From assembly GCF_037949285.1 (NCBI RefSeq), contig NZ_CP149927.1, positions 269,001-333,000 of the forward strand: a stretch of DNA of 64,000 nucleotides. Reading direction: 5' to 3'. Below, in pieces: positions 41,964 through 64,000 of this stretch. Position 1 is the first letter of the stretch. The number at the start of each line of letters is the position of its first letter. The stretch is from Thioclava sp. GXIMD4216. Lineage in GTDB: Bacteria; Pseudomonadota; Alphaproteobacteria; Rhodobacterales; Rhodobacteraceae. The translations under genes and the position numbers were made by a program. The notes below the pieces were generated by a model, which had not been told where the DNA came from, did not search any database, and was given only the letters and a program-made list of their open reading frames with translations.

Positions 41964-41988
<25 letters not shown>
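41566..41988 (+). CDS. nrdI: Flavodoxin-like ribonucleotide reductase activator NrdI
   Basis: 140 residues. [19 protein letters not shown] is the FMN phosphate loop, and [20 protein letters not shown] the second flavin-binding region. NrdI supplies the oxidant that assembles the dimanganese-tyrosyl radical cofactor in NrdF. The 3' end overlaps the nrdE start by 25 bases, which suggests translational coupling. Confidence 0.93.
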
Positions 41989-45088
<3,100 letters not shown>

Positions 45089-45159: not shown

Positions 45160-45855
45160 TCAGATCGACAGAATGCCGCTGCGCATGGCCTTGATGATCG
45201 CGAAAGTCCGGCTATTGGCCGCAAGCTTGCGCATCGCGCTTTTGAAATGGCAATCCACCGTGTTATTGCTGATATGCAGGATCGCGGAAATATCGCTGGA
45301 GGTTTTGCCGATGGCCGCCCAGCTCAGGCATTCGATCTCGCGTTTGGTCAGGTCGTAATCGTTTTTTCCGGCCAGCTTCAGCGATGCTGACACCCCGTTG
45401 AGAGACTGTAAGGCGCGCGCGGCCTCGTTCATCAACGTGTCGTTCAACGCACAGGGATTGGCTTTGGACAGCGAGGCCAGAAGCAGGCTCCCATCAAGAT
45501 TGTGGATGCTCATGCAGATGCCGGAATACAGCCCGAAATCCTGCGCCTGCCGTTGGACATGGCCATGCGTGTCGCCATAGCCCGACGCATGTTTCAGATC
45601 CGACCATTTAACCGGATAGGACACAAGGCGCCCGAATTGCAGCACCGGATCATAGCTATAAAGCTGCTGGCTGGCATAATGGCGGGCCCATTCTTCGGGG
45701 TAATTCGTCACATGCATGGTGGGCAGGGATTTTGCCGCCGTGAAATCCTGTGCCCCGATGGCGCAAATCGCGTAATAGTCGAAATCGAGATGCGCCAGAT
45801 TATGCTCGATTGTGTCCGTCAATTTCGTGGCTGCCGCGCTTGTGCTGTCTCGCAT
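45160..45855 (-). CDS. LuxR-type quorum-sensing regulator with canonical AHL-binding residues
   Basis: 231 residues. The N-terminal autoinducer domain keeps every canonical LuxR/TraR pocket residue at exact spacing: W56, Y60, D69, P70, W84 and G112 (WARHY, YSYDP, KWSDL). The C-terminal GerE helix-turn-helix (LTKREIECLSWAAIGKTSSD, SNNTVDCHFKSAMRKL) is intact. GAGGA lies just upstream of the start. It is on the same strand as, and immediately downstream of, the prodigiosin/exporter operon, but with 196 bases between and probably its own promoter. It is a likely activator of that operon in response to acyl-homoserine lactone. No luxI synthase gene is in the window. Confidence 0.9.
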   Translation of the reverse strand: MRDSTSAAATKLTDTIEHNLAHLDFDYYAICAIGAQDFTAAKSLPTMHVTNYPEEWARHYASQQLYSYDPVLQFGRLVSYPVKWSDLKHASGYGDTHGHVQRQAQDFGLYSGICMSIHNLDGSLLLASLSKANPCALNDTLMNEAARALQSLNGVSASLKLAGKNDYDLTKREIECLSWAAIGKTSSDISAILHISNNTVDCHFKSAMRKLAANSRTFAIIKAMRSGILSI

Positions 45856-46051
45856 GTCTAAATCCTCGTCTATGACGTCAAATAGCTACCCAAACGCGGT
45901 TCTGAACATATCCGATAAAATAATTACGGCGCTTTTGAGCGGGGTCGATAATTGCTGACGCGACCGTAACACCAAAACCGGCGCACAGAAACTCTTCAAA
46001 GGTAGGATAACGTAAAGAGGATGACAGTTTGACGACGCGACCCGTCCGGCA

Positions 46052-46726
46052 TCACGCCGCGCGGATGCGCCCGTCTTCCATTTCAAGCACGCGGTCTCCG
46101 GTATCGAGGATACGCGCGTCATGGGTCACCATCAGCACCGCAGAGCCGTTCTGGCTCGCCAGATCGCGCAGCAGCTCCACCACCATCTTGCCGGTCTTGC
46201 CATCCAGAGAGGCGGTCGGCTCGTCGGCCAGCACGATCTTGGGACGGGTGACCAGTGCCCGCGCAATGGCCACCCGCTGGCGTTCGCCGCCCGACATCTC
46301 GCGCGGATATTTGTCCAGCGCATGGGACAGGCCGACCTGTTCCAGCAGGTCGCGGGCCGCTTTGGCGGGCGCAGGGATTTCGGGATGCAGCCGTAACGCC
46401 ATCAGAAGGTTCTGGGTGGCCGTGAGCGCCCCGATCAGGTTATGCATCTGGAAAATAAAACCGATATGACGCCGGATTTGCAGTCGCTGCTGCGCCGATG
46501 TGCCATCCAGACGCTGGCCCAGAACGCTGATCTGGCCTTCCTGAGTGGCGCGAAGTCCGCCGATCAGGGTCAGGAATGTGGTCTTGCCCGAGCCGGAGGG
46601 GCCTTTGACGATCACGATTTCGCCGGGATCGAACCTGCCGCTCAGGTCGAACAGAACCTGCCGGCGCAATGCCTTGCTGCCATAGCTATGCGACAGGCCG
46701 GAAAATTCGATTACGGGATGTGTCAT
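46052..46726 (-). CDS. DevA-like ABC exporter ATP-binding protein
   Basis: 224 residues from MTHPVIEFSGLSHSYG. Walker A GPSGSGKTT, the ABC signature MSGGERQRVAIARAL, Walker B IVLADEPTASLD and the H-loop VLMVTHD are intact. SKALRRQVLFDLSGRFDPGE and FLTLIGGLRATQEGQISVLG closely resemble the DevA (MacB/LolD-like) group. It overlaps the permease gene by four bases. It powers a DevBCA-type tripartite exporter. It is the last gene of the prodigiosin operon, so export of the pigment or of a precursor is the likely task. Confidence 0.88.
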   Translation of the reverse strand: MTHPVIEFSGLSHSYGSKALRRQVLFDLSGRFDPGEIVIVKGPSGSGKTTFLTLIGGLRATQEGQISVLGQRLDGTSAQQRLQIRRHIGFIFQMHNLIGALTATQNLLMALRLHPEIPAPAKAARDLLEQVGLSHALDKYPREMSGGERQRVAIARALVTRPKIVLADEPTASLDGKTGKMVVELLRDLASQNGSAVLMVTHDARILDTGDRVLEMEDGRIRAA

Positions 46727-47895
46727 TGGAAAAGCTCCGCCGGATCGGCCTTGCGCAGGCGTCTCAGGGCCAGAATGCCCGAGAACAGGCACATGCCAGA
46801 GGTCATCAGGAACACCGCAAGCGACCAGCCCGGTGTCAGTCGCAGCGCATAGCCGGTGCTCTGGGCCGTGAAATAATAGATCAGCGCCGAAATCGCCACG
46901 CCCGGCACATAGCCCAGACAGGACAGGATCAGCGACTGTTTCAGCACCAGCGCCGAAAAATAGCTGTCGCGATAGCCCATCGCCTTGAGGGTGGCATATT
47001 CGGGCAGGTGGTCCGTTACATCGGTGTAAAGGATCTGGTAGACAATCACCGAGCCGACCAGAATGCCCATCAAGGCACCGGTGATGAAGATAAACCCGAT
47101 AGCGGCGGTGGTATTCCAGTAATTCGCCTCAAGCGCCACAAAATCGGCGCGGGTCACGATCTTGATATCCTTGGCCTCCAGATCGGCCTGCAACCTGTCG
47201 CGCACCGTTGCCGGATCATATCCGGGGGCCAGTTTGATCAGCCCCAGACTGGGTTCCGCCGCGCTCAGATCGGGGCGGAGCGCAAAGAAGGTCGGGCTGC
47301 CCATAACGACGGTGCCATAGGCGATAAACGACGTGCCCATATCGAAAAGTCCGGTGATCCGCACCGGCTTGTCGGCCAGTTGTGTATCGACATGGCCGGT
47401 TTTCGCAAAGGCACCGGTGATGTCGCCGAAATAGGCGGGCAGGCTTTTACGGTCAAACAGCACCGCGCCGCTGACGGCAAACTGGTCCTGCGCCGCGACC
47501 AGTTCCGGCAGGTTGATCGCGGGCTTGTCCGGCTCTACGCCGATGGCCATGATCGACCGCGAATAGCCGTTCTCGATATTCTTGAAATTCATCAGCGATA
47601 CATAAAGTGGGGCCACCTCTTGCACCCCTTCGGTCGCCATCGCCTCGTGCAGACGCATGCGGGAGAACTGGTGCTCGGCGCCGAAATATTCGAAATCGGC
47701 AGGCAGCATGACAAGATCGGCCTCAAGGCTGCTATGCACCTTGGTGGCGCTGTCGATCATGGCGTTGTAGAAACCGATCTGCACAAGGATCAGCACCACA
47801 GCGAACGCCACGCCGCAAATGGCCGCCAGCAGCCGCCGCGGCTCGAAGCTTAGCAGCCGCCATGCCAGCGAAAATCTTTGGTTGCGTGCGGGCAT
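46723..47895 (-). CDS. DevC-like ABC exporter permease (FtsX/MacB family)
   Basis: 390 residues. One N-terminal membrane segment (LLAAICGVAFAVVLILVQIG) and three C-terminal ones flank a large periplasmic domain of about 230 residues, the MacB/FtsX layout. The N-terminal IGFYNAMIDSATKVHSSLEA matches the DevC subgroup known from heterocyst glycolipid export. It starts one base into the stop of the membrane-fusion gene. With DevA- and DevB-like partners and an outer-membrane TolC-type channel encoded elsewhere, it would move a lipophilic compound out of the cell. Confidence 0.87.
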   Translation of the reverse strand: MPARNQRFSLAWRLLSFEPRRLLAAICGVAFAVVLILVQIGFYNAMIDSATKVHSSLEADLVMLPADFEYFGAEHQFSRMRLHEAMATEGVQEVAPLYVSLMNFKNIENGYSRSIMAIGVEPDKPAINLPELVAAQDQFAVSGAVLFDRKSLPAYFGDITGAFAKTGHVDTQLADKPVRITGLFDMGTSFIAYGTVVMGSPTFFALRPDLSAAEPSLGLIKLAPGYDPATVRDRLQADLEAKDIKIVTRADFVALEANYWNTTAAIGFIFITGALMGILVGSVIVYQILYTDVTDHLPEYATLKAMGYRDSYFSALVLKQSLILSCLGYVPGVAISALIYYFTAQSTGYALRLTPGWSLAVFLMTSGMCLFSGILALRRLRKADPAELFQ

Positions 47896-48788
47896 TATCG
47901 GGCCGCCCCACGCGTCTCAATCAGCACGGTCCCCTGAAAACCGTTCAGCAGCAGGACATCTTTGGGGCGATCCAGCGCGATAACCACCTGCACCACCCGT
48001 TTTTCCAGATTTTCCAGCGCATCGGTGGCGTAGATCGTCGTTTCGGTCACTTTCGGCAGGACCCGAAGCACCTTGCCACTGACGGGATGCGCCAGCGCGG
48101 GGCTTTCGAACCTGGCGGTCTGCCCGACTGCGACAAAGCGGGCCTTGGTCTCGAAAATCTCGGCCAGTGCCTCCATATGGGCGACATCGCCCATCTCGAT
48201 CAGGTCCTCTCCGGCAATCACCCCTTCGCCCATGCGCTTGTTCAGGTCGAGGATCATTCCGTCAGTGGGCGCGCGGATCACCGATTGTTCCAGCAGGATC
48301 TTGTCGTAATCAAGCTGCTTTTGCGCCGTGACCAGCTGGGCTTTGGCCAGTTCCAGCGTTTGCAGGGCGGTGTCGTAATCACTTTGCGAGATCGGCGAGA
48401 CCGAGGATTTGCGTAGCCGCGATTTCCGTTCGATATCGATCTGGGCGAAATTGACCGAGACCTCTGCCTCGGTCACACCGGCCTCGGCCAAAGCCACGGT
48501 GGCCGAAAGTGGCCCGCCGGTATCCAGTTCCAGAAGCGGCTGACCGGCTGTGACCATCTCTCCCTCATGCACCAGCACCTTGCTGATGCGATAGGTGGTA
48601 TCCCCCGCAGGCCCCGTCAGATAGCGCACGCCATCTTGCGGGCGCAGCCGTGCAAAGCCCGACACGCGGGCGGGGCTTTGCACGCTTGGCGCGTCCTGCG
48701 CCAGCGCGGGCCAGGCCTGTGCCGTGCCCAGTGCCAGAACGGCCATGAAGATCCTCAAGCGAGGGCGGAAAGAGGGAAGACCCGACAT
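47895..48788 (-). CDS. DevB-like periplasmic adaptor (HlyD/membrane fusion protein)
   Basis: 297 residues from MSGLPSFRPRLRIF; an ATG two codons earlier (48794) is equally possible. The signal sequence ends near WPALAQDA. Lipoyl-type half motifs (VLVHEGEMVTAGQPLLELDT and VIRAPTDGMILDLNKRMGEG) surround a helical hairpin rich in A, E, L and K (about residues 95-165). The C-terminal beta-barrel (RFVAVGQTARFESPALAHPV) is present. It connects an inner-membrane ABC permease to an outer-membrane channel. It lies 56 bases after pigN with no terminator between, which ties the exporter to the pigment operon. Confidence 0.86.
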   Translation of the reverse strand: MSGLPSFRPRLRIFMAVLALGTAQAWPALAQDAPSVQSPARVSGFARLRPQDGVRYLTGPAGDTTYRISKVLVHEGEMVTAGQPLLELDTGGPLSATVALAEAGVTEAEVSVNFAQIDIERKSRLRKSSVSPISQSDYDTALQTLELAKAQLVTAQKQLDYDKILLEQSVIRAPTDGMILDLNKRMGEGVIAGEDLIEMGDVAHMEALAEIFETKARFVAVGQTARFESPALAHPVSGKVLRVLPKVTETTIYATDALENLEKRVVQVVIALDRPKDVLLLNGFQGTVLIETRGAAR

Positions 48789-48844
48789 GGACATTCTGCC
48801 TTTATTGTCGTGAGAGATATTGGCGCGATCAACCCGCGCGGTGG

Positions 48845-49585
48845 TCAGGATTTGAACGCGCCATAGGGCAGGAAGAGCGGGGTCGAGCGGCAGTAGCGCG
48901 CCCAGTTCTCGCCATGCCGTTCTTGCGAGAGTTTCTCGTTTTTCGGGATCGCATCGAAGAAATACTGCAAGAGGTTCACCACCGGCGCGACCAGCCCCCA
49001 AGGCCAGACAGAGACCAGTGCGAAAGACAGGTAAATCAGGAAATCCCCGAAATAGTTGGGATGGCGCGACAGGCCCCAGAACCCGCCATGCAGCAGCTTG
49101 CCGCGATTTTCGGGGTTCTGCTTGAAGGCCCATTTCTGATAATCCGCCCCCAGATGGAACAGCGTGCCCAAAGCATAGCAGATCAGCGTCAGCGCATCAT
49201 AAAGCCCGAACGGATCGGTGCGGTCCATCGCGGCAAAGAAGGGCAGCGGATAGAGCCAGCAGAACACCGGTACCAAGACCAGCGGCAGGACCAGAAACTG
49301 GCTGGGCTTGACCTGATCCTTCAGCTTGGCCGCCCCTGTCGCATTGAACCAGATCAGCAGCGTATACAGCATCCGCGCCACATAGGCCGCCACCAGCGCC
49401 ACGATCATCCAGCGCCGCCACGCAGCGCCCTCGCCCTGAACGGCCAGCACGATGGTGACGGGCAGGATGCTGAAAAAGCCGAAGACAAAGGGCCATTTGG
49501 TGTCGCCCGTGCGCCATGCCGACAGCATGCCCAAAAGCGTGAACAGCACGGTGATCGCGATCATGATCCAATAGACAGGGGTCAT
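48845..49585 (-). CDS. pigN: PigN-like membrane protein (DUF1295/ICMT-like), bipyrrole O-methylation partner
   Basis: 246 residues with about six hydrophobic segments and the DUF1295/isoprenylcysteine methyltransferase-like motif GFWGLSRHPNYFGDFLIYLS. In Serratia, PigN is required with PigF for methylation of the hydroxy-bipyrrole aldehyde HBC to the methoxy compound MBC. Its exact chemical role is not settled. It lies 21 bases after pigA and before the exporter genes. Alone it would be just a DUF1295 protein; the cluster context supports the PigN call. Confidence 0.82.
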   Translation of the reverse strand: MTPVYWIMIAITVLFTLLGMLSAWRTGDTKWPFVFGFFSILPVTIVLAVQGEGAAWRRWMIVALVAAYVARMLYTLLIWFNATGAAKLKDQVKPSQFLVLPLVLVPVFCWLYPLPFFAAMDRTDPFGLYDALTLICYALGTLFHLGADYQKWAFKQNPENRGKLLHGGFWGLSRHPNYFGDFLIYLSFALVSVWPWGLVAPVVNLLQYFFDAIPKNEKLSQERHGENWARYCRSTPLFLPYGAFKS

Positions 49586-49606
49586 TTCTATATCTTTCTT
49601 GAATGG

Positions 49607-50755
49607 TTAACGTAATTTCATCGCGCGGGCGACGATCTCGCGCTGCATCTCGGAACTGCCCGAGAAAATCCGCGCGGGCATGGCGTCATTGAGAAACCGG
49701 TTCACGGGATGGGTAGCCGTCATCGCCTCGCCGCCGAAAATCTGCATTGCATCCTGTCCGATCTGCACCGCCGATTCCGCGATCCAGATCTTGCTCAGGG
49801 CGACGGTCTGCTCGCAGGGCTTGCCCTGATCATAGAGCCATGCCGCCTTATACAGCAAAAGCCGTGCGGTCTCGATTTTCAGGCGCATATCGACCAGCCG
49901 GTTCGAGATGGCCTGATTGGCCCCGATATGGCGCCCGAATTGCACGCGGGTGCGCGCATGCTCCAGACAGAGCGCCAGAATGCGCTCCATCGCGCCCAGA
50001 TAGATGGAAAACAGGCAGCATCTTTCCCAGACCATGCTCTCGTGGAACAGGCTGGCTCCGGCACCTTCCGGCCCGATCCGGAAGCTTTCCGGCAGCGCGC
50101 AATCTTGGAAATGCACGCTGCCCCACGGGCTGGAGCGCAGGCCCGACTTGCTTTCCTCGGCGCTGATCGTCACGCCGGGATGATCGGTGGGCAGCACGAA
50201 ACAGCTGATCCCGAAAAAGGAAGAGGTCGCATCGGTCCGGGCATAGGCCACCAGCATATCCGCGACAGGGGCGTTGGTGATAAACCGCTTCGTGCCGTTG
50301 AGGATATAGCGCCCCCCCTGTTTCTCTGCCCGCGTTTTCATGGCGAAGACATCCGAGCCGGACCCCTCTTCCGAAATCGCGTTGGCGGCGATTTTGCGGC
50401 CCTGTGCCATTGCGGGCAGCCAGTCGGCTTTCTGGCTGTCTGTGCCGCCCCGCCAGACCGGAATGACACAGGCGAAGAGATGCGCACAGAGCGAAAACAG
50501 CAAGCCCAGATCGGGGATATGACGGGCGATTGTCTCGTAGCTCTGGATGGTTTCAAGCGCCCCTGCCGCGGTGCCGCCATAGGTCTCGGGCAGCGGCAGC
50601 CCCGCCAGCCCCATCGCGCAGAGCCTGTCCCATTGCGGGCGCGAGAAGCCGGACGGGGACTGCGGGTCCTTGGCGCAGGTTGCGGCAAAATCTTGGGCAA
50701 AGCGCGCCAGATGGCTGTTGCGCTCCTGCTGTTCGGGGGAAAGAGAGAAATCCAT
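49607..50755 (-). CDS. pigA: L-prolyl-[PCP] dehydrogenase PigA (acyl-CoA dehydrogenase fold)
   Basis: 382 residues, close to the Serratia enzyme. Acyl-CoA dehydrogenase features are visible: AISEEGSGSDVFAMKTRAEK (FAD/substrate loop), ARTRVQFGRHIGANQAISNR and QIFGGEAMTATHPVNRFLND. PigA oxidises prolyl-S-PigG by four electrons to pyrrolyl-2-carboxyl-S-PigG. It is nine bases after pigM. In Serratia pigA is the first gene of the operon, so its place near the end here is a rearrangement. Confidence 0.9.
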   Translation of the reverse strand: MDFSLSPEQQERNSHLARFAQDFAATCAKDPQSPSGFSRPQWDRLCAMGLAGLPLPETYGGTAAGALETIQSYETIARHIPDLGLLFSLCAHLFACVIPVWRGGTDSQKADWLPAMAQGRKIAANAISEEGSGSDVFAMKTRAEKQGGRYILNGTKRFITNAPVADMLVAYARTDATSSFFGISCFVLPTDHPGVTISAEESKSGLRSSPWGSVHFQDCALPESFRIGPEGAGASLFHESMVWERCCLFSIYLGAMERILALCLEHARTRVQFGRHIGANQAISNRLVDMRLKIETARLLLYKAAWLYDQGKPCEQTVALSKIWIAESAVQIGQDAMQIFGGEAMTATHPVNRFLNDAMPARIFSGSSEMQREIVARAMKLR

Positions 50756-50764
50756 GACAGACCT

Positions 50765-51871
50765 TCAGTCAGACAGTAAGGGGGAATGCTCGGCACAGGG
50801 AGCGGCACAGGGGTCGCGCTGCGCGGAGGTCGCATGCAGGATCACACTGGTTTCCACGCGCGGGGTGACGATCTCCGCCGGTTTTTGTGCCCCGAGACGG
50901 GCGATGAAACAGGGCCACTCCGTGAGCCGGAGCGATAGGCGCAATGCGTCACGCGGGCGCGCGTGTTGGAGAAGCACGCTCAGCGGATGGATCTGCAACC
51001 CCAGCTGCGCCGCCGCCAGCCACAGCTCGGCCAGCCGGTTGCCGGTTTCCAGCAGATCGCCAAAGGACAGGTTCGGTGTCCGTGCCTGCAAGATCAGGAT
51101 GGCAGGGGTGGTGCGCACCAGATCGGCCAGTTCGCGTGCCAATGTCCGCGCCAGCCCGAACGGGCGCAGGCATTGCATCGTGACCGGATGCAGAAGCAGT
51201 TGCAGCAGCTTGCGCCTGAGCGTCGGTAGCGGCCCGAGCAGCGCCTCGATCGGGAAGCCGCGCGTTTTTACGACCTGTGGCGCGGGCTGGAAATGGATAT
51301 GGCGGTAGGTCTCTGACCATGCGGCGAAATTCGAGAAATCCAGCGCCCCGTAATGGGCCACAAGAGCCGCCACCTTCTGACGGGTCTGCGGGTCTTGGGT
51401 GATCCTTAGGTCGGCCGGCTGGCCGGTGCCCAGCAGTGGCCAGTGGCGTGCCGCCAGACGCGCGCAATCGGCGCGGCTGATGGGGGTTGCGGCGAAGGGG
51501 CCACGGGTGGTGCGCCGGTTGCGGACCTGTTCGGCAAAGGCATCCAGCCCCGTGCGCGTTTCCACAGCCGGCAGGGTGATCGTGATCCGCAGCGCCCTGT
51601 CCCCTTCGACATGGCAGCGCCATTGCGCGCCGCCCAAGTCCAGCACATGGCAGAAAATGCCTGCAAACAGCCCGAGGCTCAGGGCCATCTCCGCCGCAAG
51701 CGTGTCCAGCGCCGCCAGACGGGCCGTCTCATCCAGCGTCAGAAGCGCCTGATAGCTGCGCTCCTGCGGCAGGGCCTGCAGGCTGACCTGCCACGGCTGG
51801 CAATTATGAGATGACGGTGCCCATCGTGCGATCGAGGCGGCTTGGGTGATCAGCGGTGGGATCTGCGTCAT
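50765..51871 (-). CDS. pigM: PigM-like nitroreductase-fold oxidoreductase (HBM to HBC)
   Basis: 368 residues. An Acg/nitroreductase-like N-terminus (IARWAPSSHNCQPWQVSLQA) carries the flavin contact residues, and RNRRTTRGPFAATPI the second FMN-contact arginine stretch. In prodigiosin synthesis PigM oxidises the bipyrrole methanol HBM to the aldehyde HBC. Its start overlaps the pigL stop (ATGA), so the order pigL-pigM is as in known pig operons. Confidence 0.85.
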   Translation of the reverse strand: MTQIPPLITQAASIARWAPSSHNCQPWQVSLQALPQERSYQALLTLDETARLAALDTLAAEMALSLGLFAGIFCHVLDLGGAQWRCHVEGDRALRITITLPAVETRTGLDAFAEQVRNRRTTRGPFAATPISRADCARLAARHWPLLGTGQPADLRITQDPQTRQKVAALVAHYGALDFSNFAAWSETYRHIHFQPAPQVVKTRGFPIEALLGPLPTLRRKLLQLLLHPVTMQCLRPFGLARTLARELADLVRTTPAILILQARTPNLSFGDLLETGNRLAELWLAAAQLGLQIHPLSVLLQHARPRDALRLSLRLTEWPCFIARLGAQKPAEIVTPRVETSVILHATSAQRDPCAAPCAEHSPLLSD

Positions 51872-52545
51872 GCGCGGGCCTCCGTGCGGATATGTGCCGA
51901 GGCCACCGCAACCGCCGTGCCGCGCCAGATTCCGCCAAACGCGGTCAGGCAGGGCAGGCGGGCATCCTTGACGGCGATGCGGCAGCCGTGGCCCCAGCCT
52001 GTCCAGAAGATGTCGGAAATCTCGGCAAGACTGCGGGCAAGGCGGGTTTTCAGCACGGCTTCCTTGACCGCCCAGAGCACCGGCAGACGCGGGTCGTCCG
52101 GGGGGAGCGGGCCCAGCAGATCGCGCTCGGTCGTGCTCAGGAAATAGGGCAGGATCTCGGGCCGGAACGTGGTCCGCGTCTCGATATCGACCCCCAGAGG
52201 ATGGCGCGCGCAGGCAGCCAGCGCGTATGCGCCGCTATGGGCCAGAGACACCTGCCAGCCCTGCGGCCCCGCCACCGGCCCGCTACGCCCCTCGCGCGGC
52301 AGCAGCGAGAGCGTCCGCAAGGGGCCCAAGCGGGGCATCTGTCGCCGCAATGCGATCTTGGCGGCCAGCCGACCGGCCAGCCACTCGCGCTGCTTCTTGT
52401 GCTGTCCGAAACTGTGCCACAGATCGTGCTCGGGTGGGGACAGCACCTTTGCGGCCAAGCTGCGCAGCCTGTCGCTTGGCCCGTCCTGTAGCGTCAGGGC
52501 GGTGGGGCAATGGGGGCCAAGACGCAGATGGGTGACGGTGATCAT
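51868..52545 (-). CDS. pigL: 4'-phosphopantetheinyl transferase PigL
   Basis: 225 residues from MITVTHLRLGPHCPTAL. Sfp-type motifs are intact: the magnesium pair in LGVDIETR (D120, E122) and WAVKEAVLK (W158, K161, E162, K166). It would arm the carrier domains of PigG and PigH with phosphopantetheine from coenzyme A. Its start overlaps the pigK end by four bases. A longer frame upstream to 52800 lacks family similarity. Confidence 0.9.
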   Translation of the reverse strand: MITVTHLRLGPHCPTALTLQDGPSDRLRSLAAKVLSPPEHDLWHSFGQHKKQREWLAGRLAAKIALRRQMPRLGPLRTLSLLPREGRSGPVAGPQGWQVSLAHSGAYALAACARHPLGVDIETRTTFRPEILPYFLSTTERDLLGPLPPDDPRLPVLWAVKEAVLKTRLARSLAEISDIFWTGWGHGCRIAVKDARLPCLTAFGGIWRGTAVAVASAHIRTEARA

Positions 52546-52862
52546 AGGCAGGCCGCGCGCCGGTAGCCTTGGCCAAGCTGCGCGCCGGAAAGCTCTTCGA
52601 CAACCTCGGCCATGCCGGAAAATGCCGCGACGAGGCTGGCAAAGGCCGCGCTGGCCATATCGGCCTCGAAGGCGTCTTGCGAGGTGACGGTGATGACCTC
52701 GAAATAGTCGAAGCCCTGTCCGGCATCGGCACGCTGGACGCTGAAGGCCTCGACGCTGGGCAGCTGCGGGCAGGTCGCGTAATCGGTGCCGAGCACCCAT
52801 GCTTCGAAGGCCGCGGCCTGTTCGGGGGCGAGCAGGCGGATTTTGTGGATAATCAAATGCAT
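52542..52862 (-). CDS. pigK: PigK-like small protein (ferredoxin-like alpha/beta fold)
   Basis: 106 residues. The layout resembles the antibiotic-monooxygenase (ABM)/EthD-type dimeric alpha-beta barrel: MHLIIHKIRLLAPEQ as a first strand, FDYFEVITVTSQDAFEADMA in the middle and FSGMAEVVEELSGAQLG at the end. PigK/HapK has such a fold and an unclear role, suggested to be a helper in bipyrrole formation. It overlaps pigJ by 10 bases and pigL by four, conserving the J-K-L order of known pig operons. Confidence 0.75.
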   Translation of the reverse strand: MHLIIHKIRLLAPEQAAAFEAWVLGTDYATCPQLPSVEAFSVQRADAGQGFDYFEVITVTSQDAFEADMASAAFASLVAAFSGMAEVVEELSGAQLGQGYRRAACL

Positions 52863-56853: not shown

Positions 56854-58483
56854 CGACCTCGATCCCCACTTCCTTGGCGCTTTCGATCAGGATCTGGGCG
56901 GCCAGATCGAGATCTTCCAGCGTATGTTCCGAGGTAACCGAAATACGCAGCCGTGCATCGCCCACCGCCACGCCGGGGAAGACCACGGTCTGGCAGAACA
57001 TCCCGCGGGACCGGACCGCACGCCCCAGTTCCAGTGTCTTGCGGTCATCACCGATGACGACGGGCAGGATCGCGCTCTGGGTCTCGCCCAGATCGAAGCC
57101 CGCCCGCAGCAGGCGGCTCTTGAGATGGTCGATATTGCGCCAGAGCGTGGCCAGCCGTTGCGGCTCGGTCATCATTAGCTCGATCGACATGATCAACCCT
57201 GCCGCGACATGGGCGGGGATGGTGGCGGCGAACACATAGGAATTGGCGTAGAAGCGCAGATATTCCACCACCTCGGCCCGCGCCGCGACAAAGCCGCCAA
57301 CGCCTGCGAGCGTTTTCGAGAAGGTGCCCAGTTCCAGATCGACCTGCCCCTTCATCCCGAAATGCTCGCTGGTGCCCGACCCCGTCTTGCCCAGCACACC
57401 GGTGGAATGGGCATCATCCACCAGCACCTTGGCGTCGTATTTGCGCGCCAGTTCCACCAGACGCGGCAGATCGACGATATCGCCATGCATGGAGAACACG
57501 CCATCGGTCACGATCAGGCGCCCGCCCTCGGCATCGGCACTGCGTTCCAGCGTGCGTTCCAGCGAGGCGATGCTGTGCTGGTAGATCTTGCGCGAGGCCC
57601 CCGACAGCTTGCAGCCATCTTGGATGCTCATATGGTTGATCGCATCGGTAAAGACCATGTCACGCTGCGAACAGAGCGCCGAGATCGTGCCCAGATTGGC
57701 GGAATAGCCGGAGGGGAACACGATGGAATCCTCGGTGCCCTTCAGCAGCGACAGTTTCGTTTCCAGCTCTTTATGCAGGATATTCGACCCGCCAATCAGG
57801 CGGCAGCCGGTATTGGTCGCCCCATAGCGGGTTGCGGCATCGCGGATGGCCTCGAGCACCCGCGGGTCATTGGCCAGCCCGAGATAGTTGTTCGAAGCGA
57901 ACATCAGGAATTCGCGGGGGCGGCCCGCCACCTCGTCAAAAATCACCGCGCGGTTCTGGCAGGGGGTCTCCAGCGGCATTCCGTACCAGTAATAGCCCTG
58001 CGCCCGCTGGGCCTGATAGAAGGCGCTGAATTCCCTGGCCTTATGGAACAGGTCACGGCTGGGCAGGTCGGCAAAATCGCGCATGGTGCGGGTGTCTTGC
58101 GGCGCAACGGGGCGCACGTCCTCGGTAGGGGCGTCCTGCGCGGCATTGAGCAGGGTGTCGACCAGATCCGCCGCCCCGCTCTGGGCCGGTTGCGCCGCCA
58201 ATTCGGGCAGGGGCGCAGCGCCAAGCCGCTCCAGCAGCTGGCGGGTGAGATCACGGATCGAACGGATCCCGTCCAGACTGCCCCCTGCACAGTTGCACCG
58301 GCCCATCAGATCGGAATGGATCTCCAGCAGGACGATGCTGTCAATGCCCAGATCGGCCTCGAATTCGGCCTCGGGCGAAAGCTGTTCGGGGCTGTAGCCG
58401 GTATGGTGCTGCACGACCGTAAGGGTCAGCGCGAGCGCGGTTTCGTCACGCGAAAGGTCCAGGGTGGTCTGGTCGTCGCTCAT
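56846..58483 (-). CDS. pigH: PigH-like ACP-PLP condensing enzyme (single visible ACP)
   Basis: 545 residues. Residues about 10-90 are one acyl carrier domain with the phosphopantetheine serine in LGIDSIVLLEIHSDL (S49). From about 150 to the end it is an alpha-oxoamine synthase (8-amino-7-oxononanoate synthase-like): MFASNNYLGLANDPRVLEA, DAINHMSIQDG, DDAHSTGVLGKTG and the PLP lysine in LGTFSKTLAGVGGF. It decarboxylatively condenses the pyrrolyl-ketoacyl chain with serine, giving the bipyrrole HBM. The Serratia PigH is described with two tandem ACPs; only one is seen here. Confidence 0.9.
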   Translation of the reverse strand: MSDDQTTLDLSRDETALALTLTVVQHHTGYSPEQLSPEAEFEADLGIDSIVLLEIHSDLMGRCNCAGGSLDGIRSIRDLTRQLLERLGAAPLPELAAQPAQSGAADLVDTLLNAAQDAPTEDVRPVAPQDTRTMRDFADLPSRDLFHKAREFSAFYQAQRAQGYYWYGMPLETPCQNRAVIFDEVAGRPREFLMFASNNYLGLANDPRVLEAIRDAATRYGATNTGCRLIGGSNILHKELETKLSLLKGTEDSIVFPSGYSANLGTISALCSQRDMVFTDAINHMSIQDGCKLSGASRKIYQHSIASLERTLERSADAEGGRLIVTDGVFSMHGDIVDLPRLVELARKYDAKVLVDDAHSTGVLGKTGSGTSEHFGMKGQVDLELGTFSKTLAGVGGFVAARAEVVEYLRFYANSYVFAATIPAHVAAGLIMSIELMMTEPQRLATLWRNIDHLKSRLLRAGFDLGETQSAILPVVIGDDRKTLELGRAVRSRGMFCQTVVFPGVAVGDARLRISVTSEHTLEDLDLAAQILIESAKEVGIEVDD

Positions 58484-58518
58484 CTCATCTCTCCTGTTGG
58501 GGGCGTCCGCAGGACGTG

Positions 58519-58767
58519 TCAGGCCACGCCCGGTGTCATCAACTCGGTGGTCATGCGGGCAATCGCGCGGATATCGGCAAAGTTTTCCGGCACGATTTTC
58601 GTCAGCGGCACCTGAATGTCGAACTGCGCCTGAAGCAGCTCGATCAGGTCGAAGAAGGCGCTGGAATCGAGAATGTTCAGCTCCAGCAGCGGCGTGTCGG
58701 GCGTCAGCGCCTGATCTTGGCCAAGGCCGTAATTCTCTTCGATAATCTCAAGGATCTGTTGTTCCAT
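58519..58767 (-). CDS. pigG: Peptidyl carrier protein PigG
   Basis: 82 residues, four-helix carrier fold. The phosphopantetheine attachment serine is in NILDSSAFFDLIELL (S35). PigL should arm it, PigI load proline and PigA oxidise the bound prolyl group to pyrrolyl. It lies 35 bases before pigH and 21 after pigF, in the same order as Serratia (F-G-H). Confidence 0.9.
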   Translation of the reverse strand: MEQQILEIIEENYGLGQDQALTPDTPLLELNILDSSAFFDLIELLQAQFDIQVPLTKIVPENFADIRAIARMTTELMTPGVA

Positions 58768-58788
58768 AATCGGGTCCAGTCTTCAGGG

Positions 58789-59805
58789 TCAGGGTTTTTC
58801 GCCGATCAGCAGGACACGCGGTCCCGCCAGCGATGCGGCACGCACGTTCACAAAGCCCGCCGCGCGGAAACGTTCGAGATATTGCCCCGTCGTGCTTTCG
58901 ATGCCGCCATCGCAGGAGACGAGCATATTGATCGACAACAGCGCGACAAAGGCGGGGCCGGACAGGTCATCATCAAGCGGTGTCTCGCTGGCGATGAAGG
59001 TGGCTTTGGGGGGCAGGGCTGCAAAGAGGTTGGACAGGATCGTGGCTTGGGTCTCGGCGCTGTAATCATGCAGCATCCAGCCCATATGCACGAGATCGGC
59101 CGAAATCTCGGGCAGGTTCCCCGTGATCACATCCCCTTCATACACCGCGATGCGCCCGTCCATGCCCGCCTGCGCCAGTTCCTTGCGCATATGGGTCGCA
59201 GCTTCGGGCAGATCGCAGACCGCGGCGTCAAGCTGCGGATTGGCCGCCAGCACCGCGCGGGGCAATGCGGCGCGCCCCGAGCCGATATCGAGGAAGCTGC
59301 GATAGGGGGTGAAGTCGAAGTCACGGGTGAAGCTTTCCACGAAAGGATCGGCCAGCACGCTGAGGAAGGCATGGAAATCCGCGACATCGGCAGGGTCCGA
59401 ATACAGCATCTCGAACCATTTGCGCGGGTCGTTGAAGACCTTCTCGCGCTGGTTGCGGTTCTCGCGGATGCCAGCGGCGGCCTGTCCCCAGAGCGGGTAG
59501 AGGAATTTGGCCGCATGGCGGGCCAGCCCGCCCATATAGGCTGCGCCGTCCCGCAGCAGATAGGGGCGCAGATCGGCGGGCAGCGCGAAGCCCGCTTGGG
59601 TGCGGCTCAGAAAGCCCATCGTTGCCAGCGCGATCAGCAGTTGCTGGCCCGAACTTTCGGGCAGGGCGCAGGTGGCGCAGATCTCGCGGGCCTCGGCCCC
59701 GTCGCGGGCGGCCTCGAAAATGCCAAGCTCGTAGCCGCTGATCAGCGCCTGTGCGTTGAAAAATGACAACAGGGTGCCGCTGACATGGGCAAGGGGAGTG
59801 TCCAT
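58789..59805 (-). CDS. pigF: S-adenosylmethionine-dependent O-methyltransferase PigF
   Basis: 338 residues. A helical dimerisation N-terminus (ALISGYELGIFEAARDGAEA) precedes the Rossmann SAM-binding fold with YRSFLDIGSGRAALPRAVLA (glycine-rich motif I near residue 178). HMGWMLHDYSAE carries the family's catalytic histidine region. PigF methylates the hydroxyl of HBC to MBC, with PigN needed for the reaction. It is 10 bases after pigE. Confidence 0.88.
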   Translation of the reverse strand: MDTPLAHVSGTLLSFFNAQALISGYELGIFEAARDGAEAREICATCALPESSGQQLLIALATMGFLSRTQAGFALPADLRPYLLRDGAAYMGGLARHAAKFLYPLWGQAAAGIRENRNQREKVFNDPRKWFEMLYSDPADVADFHAFLSVLADPFVESFTRDFDFTPYRSFLDIGSGRAALPRAVLAANPQLDAAVCDLPEAATHMRKELAQAGMDGRIAVYEGDVITGNLPEISADLVHMGWMLHDYSAETQATILSNLFAALPPKATFIASETPLDDDLSGPAFVALLSINMLVSCDGGIESTTGQYLERFRAAGFVNVRAASLAGPRVLLIGEKP

Positions 59806-59815
59806 GAATTGGTCC

Positions 59816-62350
59816 TCAGTTCAGGAAGGTCGACATGTCGGCGCAGACGGCACGGAAGGCCTCGACGAAACGGTCGGCCTGATCCTGCGTCAGCGTCAGA
59901 GGGGGTTGCAGACGGATGACGGTGTTGGAATTCGCGGTGACGAAGGTGAGGATATTGTGATCCTGTGCCAGCTTGGTGACGAAGCGCATACAGAACATTT
60001 CCGACAGCGACCCTTCGAAGCGGCGCATCGCGTCCAGCAGGTTCTCGCGGACCTGATCGGGCAGGAAGCGCCATGTCATGTGCCAGTCGCCGGGCAGGCG
60101 GGTGGCAAATTCATGCGCCCCTGCCGAGACCGCCCCCGAGAAGTCGGCGGCAAAGGCCACCGCCAGCATCAGACCCTTGCCGCGGATCTCGCCGATAAAG
60201 GGGAATTCGGCGGTGGCTTCGGCCAGCTTGTGGCGCAGCGCCTCACCGACCCGATGGGCATTGTCCATCACCGTCCCGTCGGCCATCGCCTCCAGCGTGG
60301 CAAGCCCCGCAACTGCGGCCATATTGCCACCGCCAAAGGTGGAGCTATGCGCCACAAAGCGGTCACTGCTGCCATAGGCACGGTCCCATGTCTCCGCACG
60401 GCACAGCGTCGCGCCAATCGGCATCAGACCGCCCGAGAGCGATTTCGACAGGCACAGGATATCGGCATGGATGCCCTCCCACTGGCTGGCCAGAAAACGC
60501 CCCGTGCGCCCCATGCCGGTCTGCACCTCGTCAAGGATCAGCAGCACGCCATAGCGGTCACACAGCTGGCGGACGCCGCGCAGATAGCCCTCGGGCGGCA
60601 CATGCACCCCGCCTTCGCCCAGGATCGGCTCGACGATGAACGCCGCGATATCGCCTTGCGACAGAACCGCTTCCAGCGCGTCCAGATCGCCGAAGGGCAC
60701 AGAGACCGTGCCCGGCAGCAGCGGGCGGAACGGGCGCTGGTGTTTGTCGCGTCCGGTCACCGAAAGCGCGCCGAGGGTCTTGCCATGATAGCTGTTCTCG
60801 ACATGGGCGATGATGTGGTGCGCGGAGGCGGCGCGCGCCAGTTTCAGCGCGGCCTCGATGGCCTCGGTGCCCGAATTCGAGAAGAACACCCGCTCCATCC
60901 GCCCGCCCACGGTCTGGCACAGCCGCTCGGCCAGCAGCGCCGTCTGTTTTGGGAACGAGACATATTGCACGAAATTGGGCTGCGATCCGGCCAGAAACGC
61001 CTGTAGCGAGGTCACCACGGCGGGCGGGTTATGCCCCAGATTGAGGCAGCCATAGCCCGCCACGAAATCCAGATAGTCCTGCCCCTCGGTATCGGTCAGC
61101 ACCACGCCCTGCGCCGTCTCGAAGACGCGGTCGCAATGCAGGGTCTGCAGGAAATCGGCCAGATAGGGGTTGATATGGCGGCGGAAACGCTGCGCGGTAT
61201 CATAATGGGTCTGGCTGTGGCGTTCGGGGAGGATCGGTTGCGCGGTCAGCCCGCTTTCCTTTGGGCGGTCGGTGCAGTGATAGCGGCGGAAGCTGGCAAC
61301 GAAAGAGGGCTCGACGCGCTGGCCATAGGAGGCCAGCGGATCGGGGGCAAAGCCATGCCGCTGGGCGATCTCGCCAATCGCCAGCACCTTCTCGCTGTCC
61401 AGACTGCGCCCGATGGAATAGATCTCGGCGCGGCCTTCCAGAGCCAGCACCAGCGTTTCGGCCAGACAGGCATTGAGTTGCTGCTTGATGGTCAGGTTCA
61501 GGCTTTCGCCGCCGATCCGCACCTGATCGGAAGCGGTCACACAGCCGCCATCGATGATCAGGATATCCTCGCGCTGGGTGGCCACGCTTTCCTCGACATC
61601 GCGCGGCAGCGCCACATCGATCACGATCGAACCGGCGGCAAGGCGATGTGCGTCGATCACCCCGCCCGCCGATGTGGCGGCCACGAAAAAGCGGGTCTCG
61701 CCATAGAAAGCCGAGATATCGCCGCTCAGGCGCAGCTTGTGGTGCCAGCGTTCGGGCAGATGCGCGAGCAGATCCTCGGGTTTGGCCCCTTGGCGGTGGA
61801 CCAGATCCAGTTCGACGCCTTCCTCCAGCAGCAACCGCGCAATCACCAGAGCGATAGAGCCGGGATAGCCCACGATGCAGACACGGTGATCGCTGGGGCG
61901 TAGCTGCATCCAGCGCATGACCTGTTGCAGCGCCCGATAGGCGGCATAAGCGGTCAGGGAATTGCCGCTGGTGACAGGAACGGGGCTGGCATTGGCGACC
62001 TCGATCCCGCGACGCCCGACGATAGAGGTGAACCCGCCCAGCCCCACCAGATCGGCCCCGTCAGCGGCCAGCGATTTTGTGCCTTGGATGACGCGGCGCA
62101 GGCTGCCTTGAGCGTCATGGATCATTTCCTGTGCGGTCAGCGGTAGATAGCGCACCTGACCCGAGGTCTCGGCCCCTGTCGCGCTGACGATGCGGTCGAA
62201 ATTCATGAAGGGCACAAGGTTGTTATGCGACCAGAGATCGCGCGAATAGCCGCTGTGGAAATCCTGGCTGCTGCGCTGCACCAGATCGAGCATTTTCACA
62301 TAGCGTTTCAAAGGGACAGAGGTCGGATGGGCGATGAAACCGAAGCGCAT
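59816..62350 (-). CDS. pigE: PigE: acyl-ACP-reductase-like domain fused to class III aminotransferase
   Basis: 844 residues, close to the Serratia PigE length. Residues about 1-350 resemble long-chain acyl-[ACP] reductase (LVGLGGFTSIVGRRG near 101-115, a Rossmann motif CIVGYPGSIALVIARLLLEE near 158). Residues about 400-844 are a class III aminotransferase: LDFVAGYGCLNLGHNPP, ENSYHGKTLGALSVTG, LILDEVQTGMGRTG and the PLP lysine in CLSKSLSGGLMPIG. PigE aminates 3-acetyloctanal, which cyclises to H2MAP; the reductase-like domain may supply an aldehyde from a thioester. The start is two bases after the pigD stop. Confidence 0.9.
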   Translation of the reverse strand: MRFGFIAHPTSVPLKRYVKMLDLVQRSSQDFHSGYSRDLWSHNNLVPFMNFDRIVSATGAETSGQVRYLPLTAQEMIHDAQGSLRRVIQGTKSLAADGADLVGLGGFTSIVGRRGIEVANASPVPVTSGNSLTAYAAYRALQQVMRWMQLRPSDHRVCIVGYPGSIALVIARLLLEEGVELDLVHRQGAKPEDLLAHLPERWHHKLRLSGDISAFYGETRFFVAATSAGGVIDAHRLAAGSIVIDVALPRDVEESVATQREDILIIDGGCVTASDQVRIGGESLNLTIKQQLNACLAETLVLALEGRAEIYSIGRSLDSEKVLAIGEIAQRHGFAPDPLASYGQRVEPSFVASFRRYHCTDRPKESGLTAQPILPERHSQTHYDTAQRFRRHINPYLADFLQTLHCDRVFETAQGVVLTDTEGQDYLDFVAGYGCLNLGHNPPAVVTSLQAFLAGSQPNFVQYVSFPKQTALLAERLCQTVGGRMERVFFSNSGTEAIEAALKLARAASAHHIIAHVENSYHGKTLGALSVTGRDKHQRPFRPLLPGTVSVPFGDLDALEAVLSQGDIAAFIVEPILGEGGVHVPPEGYLRGVRQLCDRYGVLLILDEVQTGMGRTGRFLASQWEGIHADILCLSKSLSGGLMPIGATLCRAETWDRAYGSSDRFVAHSSTFGGGNMAAVAGLATLEAMADGTVMDNAHRVGEALRHKLAEATAEFPFIGEIRGKGLMLAVAFAADFSGAVSAGAHEFATRLPGDWHMTWRFLPDQVRENLLDAMRRFEGSLSEMFCMRFVTKLAQDHNILTFVTANSNTVIRLQPPLTLTQDQADRFVEAFRAVCADMSTFLN

Positions 62351-62352
62351 GG

Positions 62353-64000
62353 CTAGATCCTTTCTTCGGTATGGGCGCGGAGCGGGCGGTTGCGCCGTCC
62401 CGCCAGTTGGTCTTGCTGCCAGCCCGAAACATGGGCCAGAGACATGCCGTCGCCCTCGTTGTTATGGGCCAGATTGACGGTAAAGAGATTGATACGCCCG
62501 CGTTTGCGCAGATCATGGCGCAGGGCGTCGGGGTCGAATGTGTTGATGGCGCGGGTCACGACCTGATAGCCGCACATATCCTGCTGGCTGTCCTGCGTGC
62601 CCAGATTGAGCACCCGCATCTGCCGGGACGTGCGGTTGAACAGGATCCGCTCCTGATACGAATTGATGGCCGAGAGGCCGCTATTGGCCAGCACGAAAAT
62701 GGTCACGCTCAGGTCGCGGCGCGCCCCGTTGGCAAGGGCGTTTTCCAGCAGGCTGGGCAGGATGTCGGGCACCAGAGCGCGTGCCCCGTCCCCGACAAAG
62801 ACCAGCAGATCGGTGGCGGCGGTCTGCGCCAATGCGACCGTTGCGGTATAGGCATCGCCCATCAGCGCCCGCCCGTACCAGCCCGAAAAGCCCGCGCGGG
62901 TTCTGGGCAGGTTGCGGATGGCCGAGATGCCGCAGCGTCCCACATCGTAAAGCCCCGTGAAATCGTAGCCCTCGGCCTCGATCATATGGCGCAGGAGCGC
63001 GCCCAGCTGACCGAAGAAATAATTGGGTGTCATCGGCAGGACGGGCAGGCTGCTGGACAGGTCCTTCTCGCCCTCGCGGGCCAGTGCGATCGCGGCACGA
63101 CGGCGGGCCAGCAGGGCGTCGGAGATATCCAGCCGCGCCAGAAGATAGGCAAGGGCGGCTTCGGGGTCGTGGCGGATCGCCAGATCGGCAAAGGGGGCGA
63201 GGTGGTCGCTGCGGCGGACGATCTGCGCGATCTGGAACTGCTGGCGCAGCTTGCTTTCACCGAAAGGCGTGGCCGCCTGCGAGATCTTGTCCTCCATGAA
63301 AATCAGCGCCTGCGTCTCGCGCGGGGCAATCCGGCCGCCGCGATACAGATAGCGGTAGACCGGATCGGAAAAGCCATAAACACCAAGCGTGCCGAGATAA
63401 TTGGGGTTGGGACGCCCGTTGTGATGGCTGGCCACCATGCCCGGATGCAGGATGCTGTCGACCAGCGCGATGCCGCTTGCCTCGGCCAGCTCGGTCACAA
63501 GCTGGCGGCAGCGGGGCGGCAATGCGCCGGGCTGTAAAAGCAGGCGTTCGGCATCGCCATTGACCAGATCGACCAGATCATCCAGCGCGGCGGGCGGCGC
63601 GTGGCTTTGCGTCTGGTCCTGTGCGGGGACGGGAACGCAGGGGGCGGGAACGCGGGGGGTGGGCGGCGCGGCCATATTCATGACGGCCTGCGTGGCCAGG
63701 ATGACCACCGGTCCGCGATCTGCGGCATAAAGCGCCATCGCCTGTTCCAGCCCCCGCGCCAGATCCTGCGGCTCGCTGATATAGACAAAGGGCACACCGC
63801 GCGCATGCAGCACGTCGCGACTGTCGAATTCGGGGTTGATGGTGGATTGGAACGCATACCACAGCGCCGGTTTCTGTTCGGCGCAGATCAGGAAACCGCG
63901 CGCGCGGGTCTCGTAGAGATTGGCAAAAGTTCCGCGGAATTCATCGATCATTCCCGAGGTGACGATGGTGACCGAGGGCTTTTCGTAAAGCTGCCAGTTG
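62353..64000 (-). CDS. pigD: PigD-like thiamine-diphosphate enzyme (N-terminal part outside window)
   Basis: The frame continues through the right edge; 548 C-terminal residues are visible (starting NWQLYEKPSVTIVTSGMIDE). The ThDP/magnesium signature is LLVFVGDGARALVPDIL in the acetolactate-synthase-like C-terminal domain, preceded by GFSGWYGRALMGDAYTATVA. PigD uses pyruvate and 2-octenal to make 3-acetyloctanal, the first step of the MAP branch; the Serratia protein has roughly 870 residues, so about 320 are missing here. The gene is two bases before pigE. Other ThDP decarboxylases are possible in principle, but order and context fit PigD. Confidence 0.88.
   Translation of the reverse strand, partial: NWQLYEKPSVTIVTSGMIDEFRGTFANLYETRARGFLICAEQKPALWYAFQSTINPEFDSRDVLHARGVPFVYISEPQDLARGLEQAMALYAADRGPVVILATQAVMNMAAPPTPRVPAPCVPVPAQDQTQSHAPPAALDDLVDLVNGDAERLLLQPGALPPRCRQLVTELAEASGIALVDSILHPGMVASHHNGRPNPNYLGTLGVYGFSDPVYRYLYRGGRIAPRETQALIFMEDKISQAATPFGESKLRQQFQIAQIVRRSDHLAPFADLAIRHDPEAALAYLLARLDISDALLARRRAAIALAREGEKDLSSSLPVLPMTPNYFFGQLGALLRHMIEAEGYDFTGLYDVGRCGISAIRNLPRTRAGFSGWYGRALMGDAYTATVALAQTAATDLLVFVGDGARALVPDILPSLLENALANGARRDLSVTIFVLANSGLSAINSYQERILFNRTSRQMRVLNLGTQDSQQDMCGYQVVTRAINTFDPDALRHDLRKRGRINLFTVNLAHNNEGDGMSLAHVSGWQQDQLAGRRNRPLRAHTEERI

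Follow-up and report, generated by a model that had tools for sequence, protein, structure and literature searches.

The window analyzed here is a 64,000-base stretch comprising bases 269001-333000 of contig C2 (NZ_CP149927.1; 478,822 bases) in the 3.84 Mb, six-contig genome of Thioclava sp. GXIMD4216, and, together with its extension on the same contig (coordinates >64000, numbered as for the window), it very probably carries a complete prodigiosin gene cluster of the pig/hap type, with a DevBCA-type ATP-binding cassette (ABC) transporter as the likely exporter and a LuxI/LuxR pair as the likely density switch. This assignment rests on gene content, gene order, open frames, conserved motifs and phylogeny. 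Four of the proteins (PigA, PigC, PigD and PigE) pass the cut-offs of curated NCBIfam equivalogs, and the gene order recurs elsewhere; the cluster is thus beyond chance.

The genes lie on the minus strand in the order DUF6041-pigB-pigC-pigD-pigE-pigF-pigG-pigH-pigI-pigJ-pigK-pigL-pigM-pigA-pigN-devB-devC-devA, an 18-gene run in which each junction measures between -20 and +50 bases and every cluster gene has an open frame. A 196-base gap after devA leads to luxR, and luxI stands divergent, 310 bases from DUF6041. The original prediction, made from the letters of the window, had placed twelve pig genes (D-E-F-G-H-I-J-K-L-M-A-N) on the minus strand, all of which we find as open frames where it put them; the same interval also holds luxR and devA-devC-devB (46052-48794), which had not entered its reasoning. 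The window edge cuts pigD, and pigC, pigB, DUF6041 and luxI lie outside the window, such that the expectation of pigC and pigB beyond 64000 is borne out rightward on the same contig. In the list below, Prodigiosinella stands for Prodigiosinella confusarubida LacA, which we take to be Serratia sp. ATCC 39006. FTW29 is Thioclava sp. FTW29, given as the type strain of T. litoralis in PMC12281875.

45160..45855, minus strand: luxR, autoinducer-binding regulator, 231 amino acids (aa); Pfam Autoind_bind + GerE
46052..46726, minus strand: devA, exporter ATPase; NCBIfam DevA 308 bits, cut-off 295.8
46723..47895, minus strand: devC, exporter permease; NCBIfam DevC 352.3 bits, cut-off 290.35
47895..48794, minus strand: devB, membrane fusion protein; NCBIfam DevB 139.5 bits, cut-off 129; FTW29 start 16 codons later
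48845..49585, minus strand: pigN (DUF1295); Pfam DUF1295; 40.5% identity to the Prodigiosinella protein
49607..50755, minus strand: pigA, prolyl-carrier dehydrogenase; NCBIfam PigA 526.9 bits, cut-off 500; best solved chain 5zw0
50765..51871, minus strand: pigM, nitroreductase-like oxidase; Pfam Nitroreductase; 33% identity to the Prodigiosinella protein
51868..52545, minus strand: pigL, phosphopantetheinyl transferase, 225 aa; Pfam ACPS; same start annotated in FTW29
52542..52862, minus strand: pigK, RedY-like small protein, 106 aa; 41% over 85 residues to the Prodigiosinella protein (cut locus); tblastn matches in relatives
52853..55234, minus strand: pigJ, pyrrolyl ketosynthase; Pfam ketoacyl-synt N + C; ACASS and HGTGT motifs; NCBIfam PigJ best, below cut-off
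55231..56853, minus strand: pigI, proline adenylation enzyme; Pfam AMP-binding; best solved chain 7thn
56846..58483, minus strand: pigH, carrier + pyridoxal phosphate acyltransferase, 545 aa, single carrier domain; Pfam PP-binding + Aminotran_1_2; alignment
58519..58767, minus strand: pigG, prolyl carrier protein, 82 aa; Pfam PP-binding; attachment Ser conserved
58789..59805, minus strand: pigF, O-methyltransferase; Pfam Methyltransf_2; 46% identity to the Prodigiosinella protein
59816..62350, minus strand: pigE, thioester reductase + aminotransferase; NCBIfam PigE 1369.2 bits, cut-off 850; best solved chain 4ppm, over the whole length
62353-64806 (extended; 3' part 62353..64000 in the window), minus strand: pigD; NCBIfam PigD 1271.7 bits, cut-off 950
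64847-67546 (extended), minus strand: pigC; NCBIfam PigC 1411.5 bits, cut-off 1300
67527-69197 (extended), minus strand: pigB; NCBIfam PigB 478.2 bits, below the cut-off of 850
69201-69638 (extended), minus strand: DUF6041, start uncertain; N-terminal part of the NCBIfam PigB model
69949-70560 (extended), plus strand: luxI, likely luxR partner; Pfam Autoind_synth

Some of these boundaries depend on the choice of frame. The list of open reading frames contains pigK only inside a longer frame, from which we take the 106-aa gene, and the 310-aa frame listed for pigL begins too early. Neither devB nor DUF6041 has a certain start, and different ones are annotated in the FTW29 record.

Beyond the four equivalogs, no prodigiosin-named NCBIfam match stands among those listed for PigF, G, H, I, K, L, M and N (for PigI, 25 of 104 families), and these proteins are identified by Pfam domain, by their place in the cluster and by sequence identity with relatives. 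Global identity to the Prodigiosinella proteins is 29% for DUF6041, 40.5% for PigB, 49% for PigC, 41% for PigD, 58% for PigE, 46% for PigF, 32% for PigG, 59% for PigH, 44% for PigI, 35% for PigJ, 41% for PigK (reference cut), 33% for PigM, 43% for PigA and 40.5% for PigN; PigL was not found in this strain by the scripted comparison. The motifs are conserved relative to the Prodigiosinella proteins, reference Cys296 of PigE being Cys295 in Thioclava, and the solved chains matched by PigI and PigA are named L-proline--[L-prolyl-carrier protein] ligase (7thn) and L-prolyl-[peptidyl-carrier protein] dehydrogenase (5zw0), respectively. Thus, the predicted prodigiosin-type operon with a bipyrrole branch, and the placing of PigD and PigE in the other branch, both stand. 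We note separately that PigC is the only PPDK_N (phosphoenolpyruvate-synthase-type) protein found in its own genome, whereas at least one occurs in 13 of 14 control genomes.

The catalytic steps predicted for Thioclava, together with the predicted export, quorum control and product, are as follows. In the bipyrrole (MBC) branch, for which the gene roles are in part general knowledge, PigI would load proline onto PigG and PigA would oxidize the prolyl group, after which PigJ with PigH would build the bipyrrole, PigM would oxidize it, and PigF with PigN would methylate it, the carriers being armed by PigL. These roles otherwise follow a table in PMC6667630. In the second branch, PigD would transfer an acetyl unit from pyruvate to a medium-chain 2-enoyl thioester; PigE would then reduce the thioester and aminate the aldehyde, whose product would cyclize, in line with the description in PMC8341465 of a likely thioester product of PigD that PigE reduces (probably via Cys296) and aminates. 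PigB, a flavin adenine dinucleotide oxidase encoded apart from its membrane part DUF6041, would yield 2-methyl-3-alkylpyrrole (MAP), and is described in PMC7065143 as oxidizing the dihydropyrrole to the pyrrole. Finally, PigC would join the MAP and bipyrrole halves, DevBCA, encoded within the same abutting gene run, would most likely be the pigment exporter, and the LuxI/LuxR pair on the flanks would most likely activate the operon when cell density is high.

Two relatives of this pathway share enough of these enzymes to be considered. In a tambjamine-type cluster, the same bipyrrole would be joined to a fatty amine from a TamA/TamT/TamH set, and the tam cluster of Pseudoalteromonas tunicata, which we compared by the table in PMC6667630 only, indeed resembles the Thioclava locus in its bipyrrole branch and its ABC transporter, with TamH as the PigE counterpart. 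That table marks pigB, pigD and pigN, all present in Thioclava, as absent from tam, which has tamA and tamT instead; and the Thioclava operon has one AMP-binding enzyme (of the prolyl type) and one acyl-CoA dehydrogenase (PigA), and thus no TamA/TamT counterpart. Gene content therefore refutes this reading, which the original prediction had also raised against itself and which we regard as exceedingly improbable. Equally improbable is a cluster of the actinomycete red type (undecylprodigiosin): PigC does score 884 bits with the RedH model and PigA 397.5 bits with RedW, but the respective cut-offs of 1350 and 650 are missed, whereas PigC and PigA pass their own and PigD and PigE are present, such that the NCBIfam cut-offs refute it.

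Several observations count against the assignment to a prodigiosin cluster with exporter and density switch. The Thioclava cluster is known here from genes alone; PigJ scores 318.3 bits against a cut-off of 900 (NCBIfam PigJ is still its best match, and the protein is divergent), and PigB 478.2 bits against 850; PigH is one carrier domain short of the usual two; no DevC was found in the Notoacmeibacter, Hahella and Thiosymbion genomes, and no LuxI relative in the Pseudovibrio, Methylosinus, Microbulbifer and Hahella genomes; and the producing Pseudovibrio strain discussed below differs from the sequenced one used here. As LuxI and DevC were each not found in several of these genomes, neither quorum control nor DevBCA is general to such clusters.

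The low PigB score has a structural explanation, since the whole-protein model (659 positions) is split over two adjacent genes, with positions 10-118 matching the DUF6041 protein (64 bits) and positions 157-654 the PigB protein (478 bits); a fused PigB was looked for in the Thioclava cluster and not found. We dropped the split as a novel trait, because Hahella has it as well, its membrane part being separate (HapB and HCH_06023, as given in PMC7065143). More broadly, PigB is separate from DUF6041 in the alphaproteobacterial, Hahella, Zooshikella and Thiosymbion loci, and fused to it in the Vibrio, Pseudoalteromonas, Prodigiosinella and Serratia loci, except for the frameshifted S. rubidaea; the Thioclava protein falls inside the alphaproteobacterial clade of the PigB tree. 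In Massilia and Rugamonas (L010-L013), PigB and PigC share one 1458-aa frame, and no DUF6041 match was found.

The missing PigH carrier bears on whether the pathway runs at all. Among 30 PigH sequences scanned for the attachment motif (a scan that alone undercounts some two-carrier rows) and 19 aligned, a single carrier is found in the three Thioclava strains, Notoacmeibacter, Pseudovibrio and a Cellvibrionales metagenome-assembled genome (MAG); both Methylocystis sequences have the second-carrier attachment Ser replaced by Ala, and Methylosinus, like all other aligned rows, has two carriers. Two carriers are not required in our definition of such a cluster, given that a one-carrier PigH also occurs in Pseudovibrio, a genus from which production has been reported. 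A cluster that is silent or failing, either unexpressed or leaving the bipyrrole unfinished for want of the second carrier, would be compatible with a locus known from its genes, a divergent PigJ and the shortened PigH; but all frames are open, the cluster is retained in three Thioclava strains, and Pseudovibrio, in which a different strain is the reported producer, has a one-carrier PigH as well; we consider this reading very unlikely. If one-carrier enzymes work, one carrier would suffice for bipyrrole formation.

Taking the pathway as functional, its product would most likely be a MAP-type prodigiosin, probably with an amyl or heptyl side chain. Of these, we favor heptyl because the nearest reported producer genus, Pseudovibrio, makes heptylprodigiosin, as reported in 2007 (cited in PMC4278209 and PMC7484904). 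A working pathway to another product, with a different side chain or as a nor- or cyclized form, appears very unlikely: side-chain length is not readable from sequence with the tools used, and PMC7065143 describes PigB and HapB as tolerant of different side chains, but the operon has no extra tailoring enzyme.

The relatives of this prodigiosin cluster are few. A PigD search retrieved 5 of 72,556 plasmid records (two Thioclava, two Methylocystis iwaonis and one Pseudoalteromonas), and in the genome collection 85 stretches fit the pattern, of which 28 were confirmed, four being alphaproteobacterial (Notoacmeibacter, Methylosinus, Pseudovibrio and Methylocystis). At E 0.001, matches occur in 1/16 genomes of the genus, 4/394 of the family, 2/390 of the order and 2/385 of the class, in overlapping and partial samples that each count the genome itself; those beyond it are partial (18-21 bits over 103-137 model positions) and are taken as other thiamine-diphosphate enzymes. 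The host being a member of the Rhodobacterales, as predicted, is confirmed by Thioclava itself, with 98.6% identity over 25 kb to the FTW29 plasmid.

In a FastTree phylogeny of PigC, D, E, F, H and I (28 rows, after excluding the cut, partial or frameshifted L028, L030, L031, L032 and L035 from the 32 loci L004-L035), Thioclava groups with Pseudovibrio and Notoacmeibacter, and next with the methanotrophs, in one alphaproteobacterial group (support 1.0 and 0.975 on either side of the midpoint root, which leaves direction in this tree unproven). The alphaproteobacterial rows likewise form one group in 10 of 10 single-gene trees (0.85-1.0), as do the marine ones (1.0); these trees exclude L035, that of PigI also L032, and the PigA tree holds only four alphaproteobacterial rows, three of them Thioclava. 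At least two orders are represented among the hosts. In Thioclava and M. iwaonis, plasmids carry the cluster, and in Notoacmeibacter a 214,548-base contig is interrupted within it, both contig ends holding overlapping pigL pieces, as would be the case for a circular replicon. Horizontal spread within the class would be the simplest reading.

The individual loci agree with this grouping to different degrees. Those of Notoacmeibacter sp. MSK16QG-6 (L008) and Pseudovibrio sp. Ad37 (L027) share with Thioclava 65% PigD identity, a one-carrier PigH, a separate DUF6041 and, as far as they reach, the same order, with pigL-M-A-N at the end; unlike Thioclava, Notoacmeibacter is without DevC and Pseudovibrio without a detected LuxI. 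The methanotrophs Methylocystis and Methylosinus (L006, L009, L033) share the order including the terminal devBCA, the separate DUF6041 and 49% PigD identity, but have a longer PigH with a second carrier and no lux genes seen in the locus, and their DevBCA is apparently of different origin. The Hahella hap cluster (L015, L066) resembles Thioclava in having PigB apart from its membrane part and pigL, M and N downstream, but differs in its pigA preceding pigB, a two-carrier PigH and the lack of a DevC match in the genome. In Prodigiosinella (L026, L065), pig enzymes are 29-59% identical where found, but PigB and DUF6041 are fused, PigH has two carriers and pigA comes first. The single open-access paper that mentions methanotrophs together with the pigment appears unrelated, judging by its listing.

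DevA, DevB and DevC all exceed their NCBIfam cut-offs, and devBCA adjoins the pig genes in both Thioclava and the methanotrophs (with no devB match in the Methylosinus locus). Pseudovibrio has one distant DevC (30%), unlinked and on another contig; an adjacent exporter may yet exist there, as the cluster contig ends ~340 bases after pigN. In small, midpoint-rooted trees of 11 DevC and 7 DevA sequences, the methanotroph proteins group with Pseudoroseomonas (support 0.94 and 0.97), apart from Thioclava, and Thioclava and the methanotrophs may thus have recruited DevBCA separately. Inheritance of DevBCA with the cluster as a single block is unsupported by these trees and by the DevC-less Notoacmeibacter; given the small sample, DevBCA may nevertheless have a single origin.

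The luxI gene encodes the sole LuxI-family match in the genome, which has three matches to the LuxR autoinducer domain. A related pair stands beside the Notoacmeibacter operon (luxI 61%, luxR 55%), although in Thioclava luxR is at the opposite end; Methylocystis has only a 31% LuxI relative, elsewhere in its genome. We infer export and quorum control from position, the single LuxI match and the Notoacmeibacter pair. A 17-base palindrome lies ~90 bases before DUF6041 (chance expectation 0.01 in locus L002, for a pattern chosen after the palindrome was seen), with no second copy in the window, and a search for a shared LuxR-binding site gave no match of that kind of site for Notoacmeibacter.

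Taken together, these comparisons allow a broader reading that we hold tentatively, at slightly less than an even chance: the alphaproteobacteria would have their own branch of the pathway, moved on large replicons, in which the second PigH carrier, still intact in Methylosinus, decayed (Ala for Ser in Methylocystis) and was then lost (Thioclava, Notoacmeibacter and Pseudovibrio), DevBCA was recruited at least two times, and the genome's only LuxI became tied to the pigment in Thioclava. If this is true, DevBCA would be a dedicated prodigiosin efflux and self-protection system. The pathway is well known, and Alphaproteobacteria are not a new host class (Pseudovibrio, 2007), but the alphaproteobacterial branch has some unusual parts. 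We found no paper naming Thioclava as a prodigiosin carrier; this genus of the Rhodobacterales joins those whose prodigiosin pathway is complete. Its cluster and those of Methylocystis, Methylosinus, Pseudovibrio and Notoacmeibacter together sketch an alphaproteobacterial branch, which provides natural tests of the need for two PigH carriers and of how pigment leaves its producer. Pigment regulation could also be studied cleanly in a marine host that has just one LuxI-type synthase.

Contig C2 is probably a plasmid, as the same cluster, in the same order, sits on plasmids of 505 and 491 kb in Thioclava sp. FTW29 and GXIMD4215, to which positions 1-25000 of the window align full length (98.6% and 98.4%, respectively). 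The pig-dev stretch is not marked out as foreign by GC content (64.1%, against 61.9% and 62.7% in its flanks); luxR and luxI have 55.7% and 57.2%, respectively.

Further loci met in these searches are recorded here. Microbulbifer halophilus (L032:9950-15012) has pigD and pigE together, both above the NCBIfam cut-offs, with no further pig gene within 10 kb (a weak pigI match is a distant adenylation enzyme) and with arginine-decarboxylase-like and saccharopine-dehydrogenase-like genes downstream, and may put the MAP branch to a separate use. A Leptospirales MAG (L030:9986-14285) has a PigD relative (881.6 bits, below the cut-off of 950) in a row with genes for a family III CoA-transferase and a short-chain dehydrogenase, and no other pig genes at the locus. 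The MAG of the nematode ectosymbiont Candidatus Thiosymbion ectosymbiont of Catanema (L016, L067) has a full-looking pig cluster, in which one pigM match reads through a TGA. In Notoacmeibacter (L050:8052-11192), Lactamase_B_2, TENA/PqqC and radical SAM/SPASM genes lie beside the pig cluster, presumably resembling pqqB, pqqC and pqqE, judging by their domains.

Around the Thioclava cluster, a ribonucleotide reductase pair, nrdE + nrdF (41964-45088), adjoins it here and in both Thioclava plasmids, where it is annotated as class 1b. The part of the FTW29 plasmid that matches positions 1-25000 of the window includes, among other genes, an annotated type VI secretion tip protein (TssI/VgrG). The GXIMD4215 plasmid (L005:567-6459) carries genes for an AMP-binding protein, an acyl carrier protein and an amino acid adenylation protein ~8 kb from luxI, which is perhaps a second small peptide pathway.

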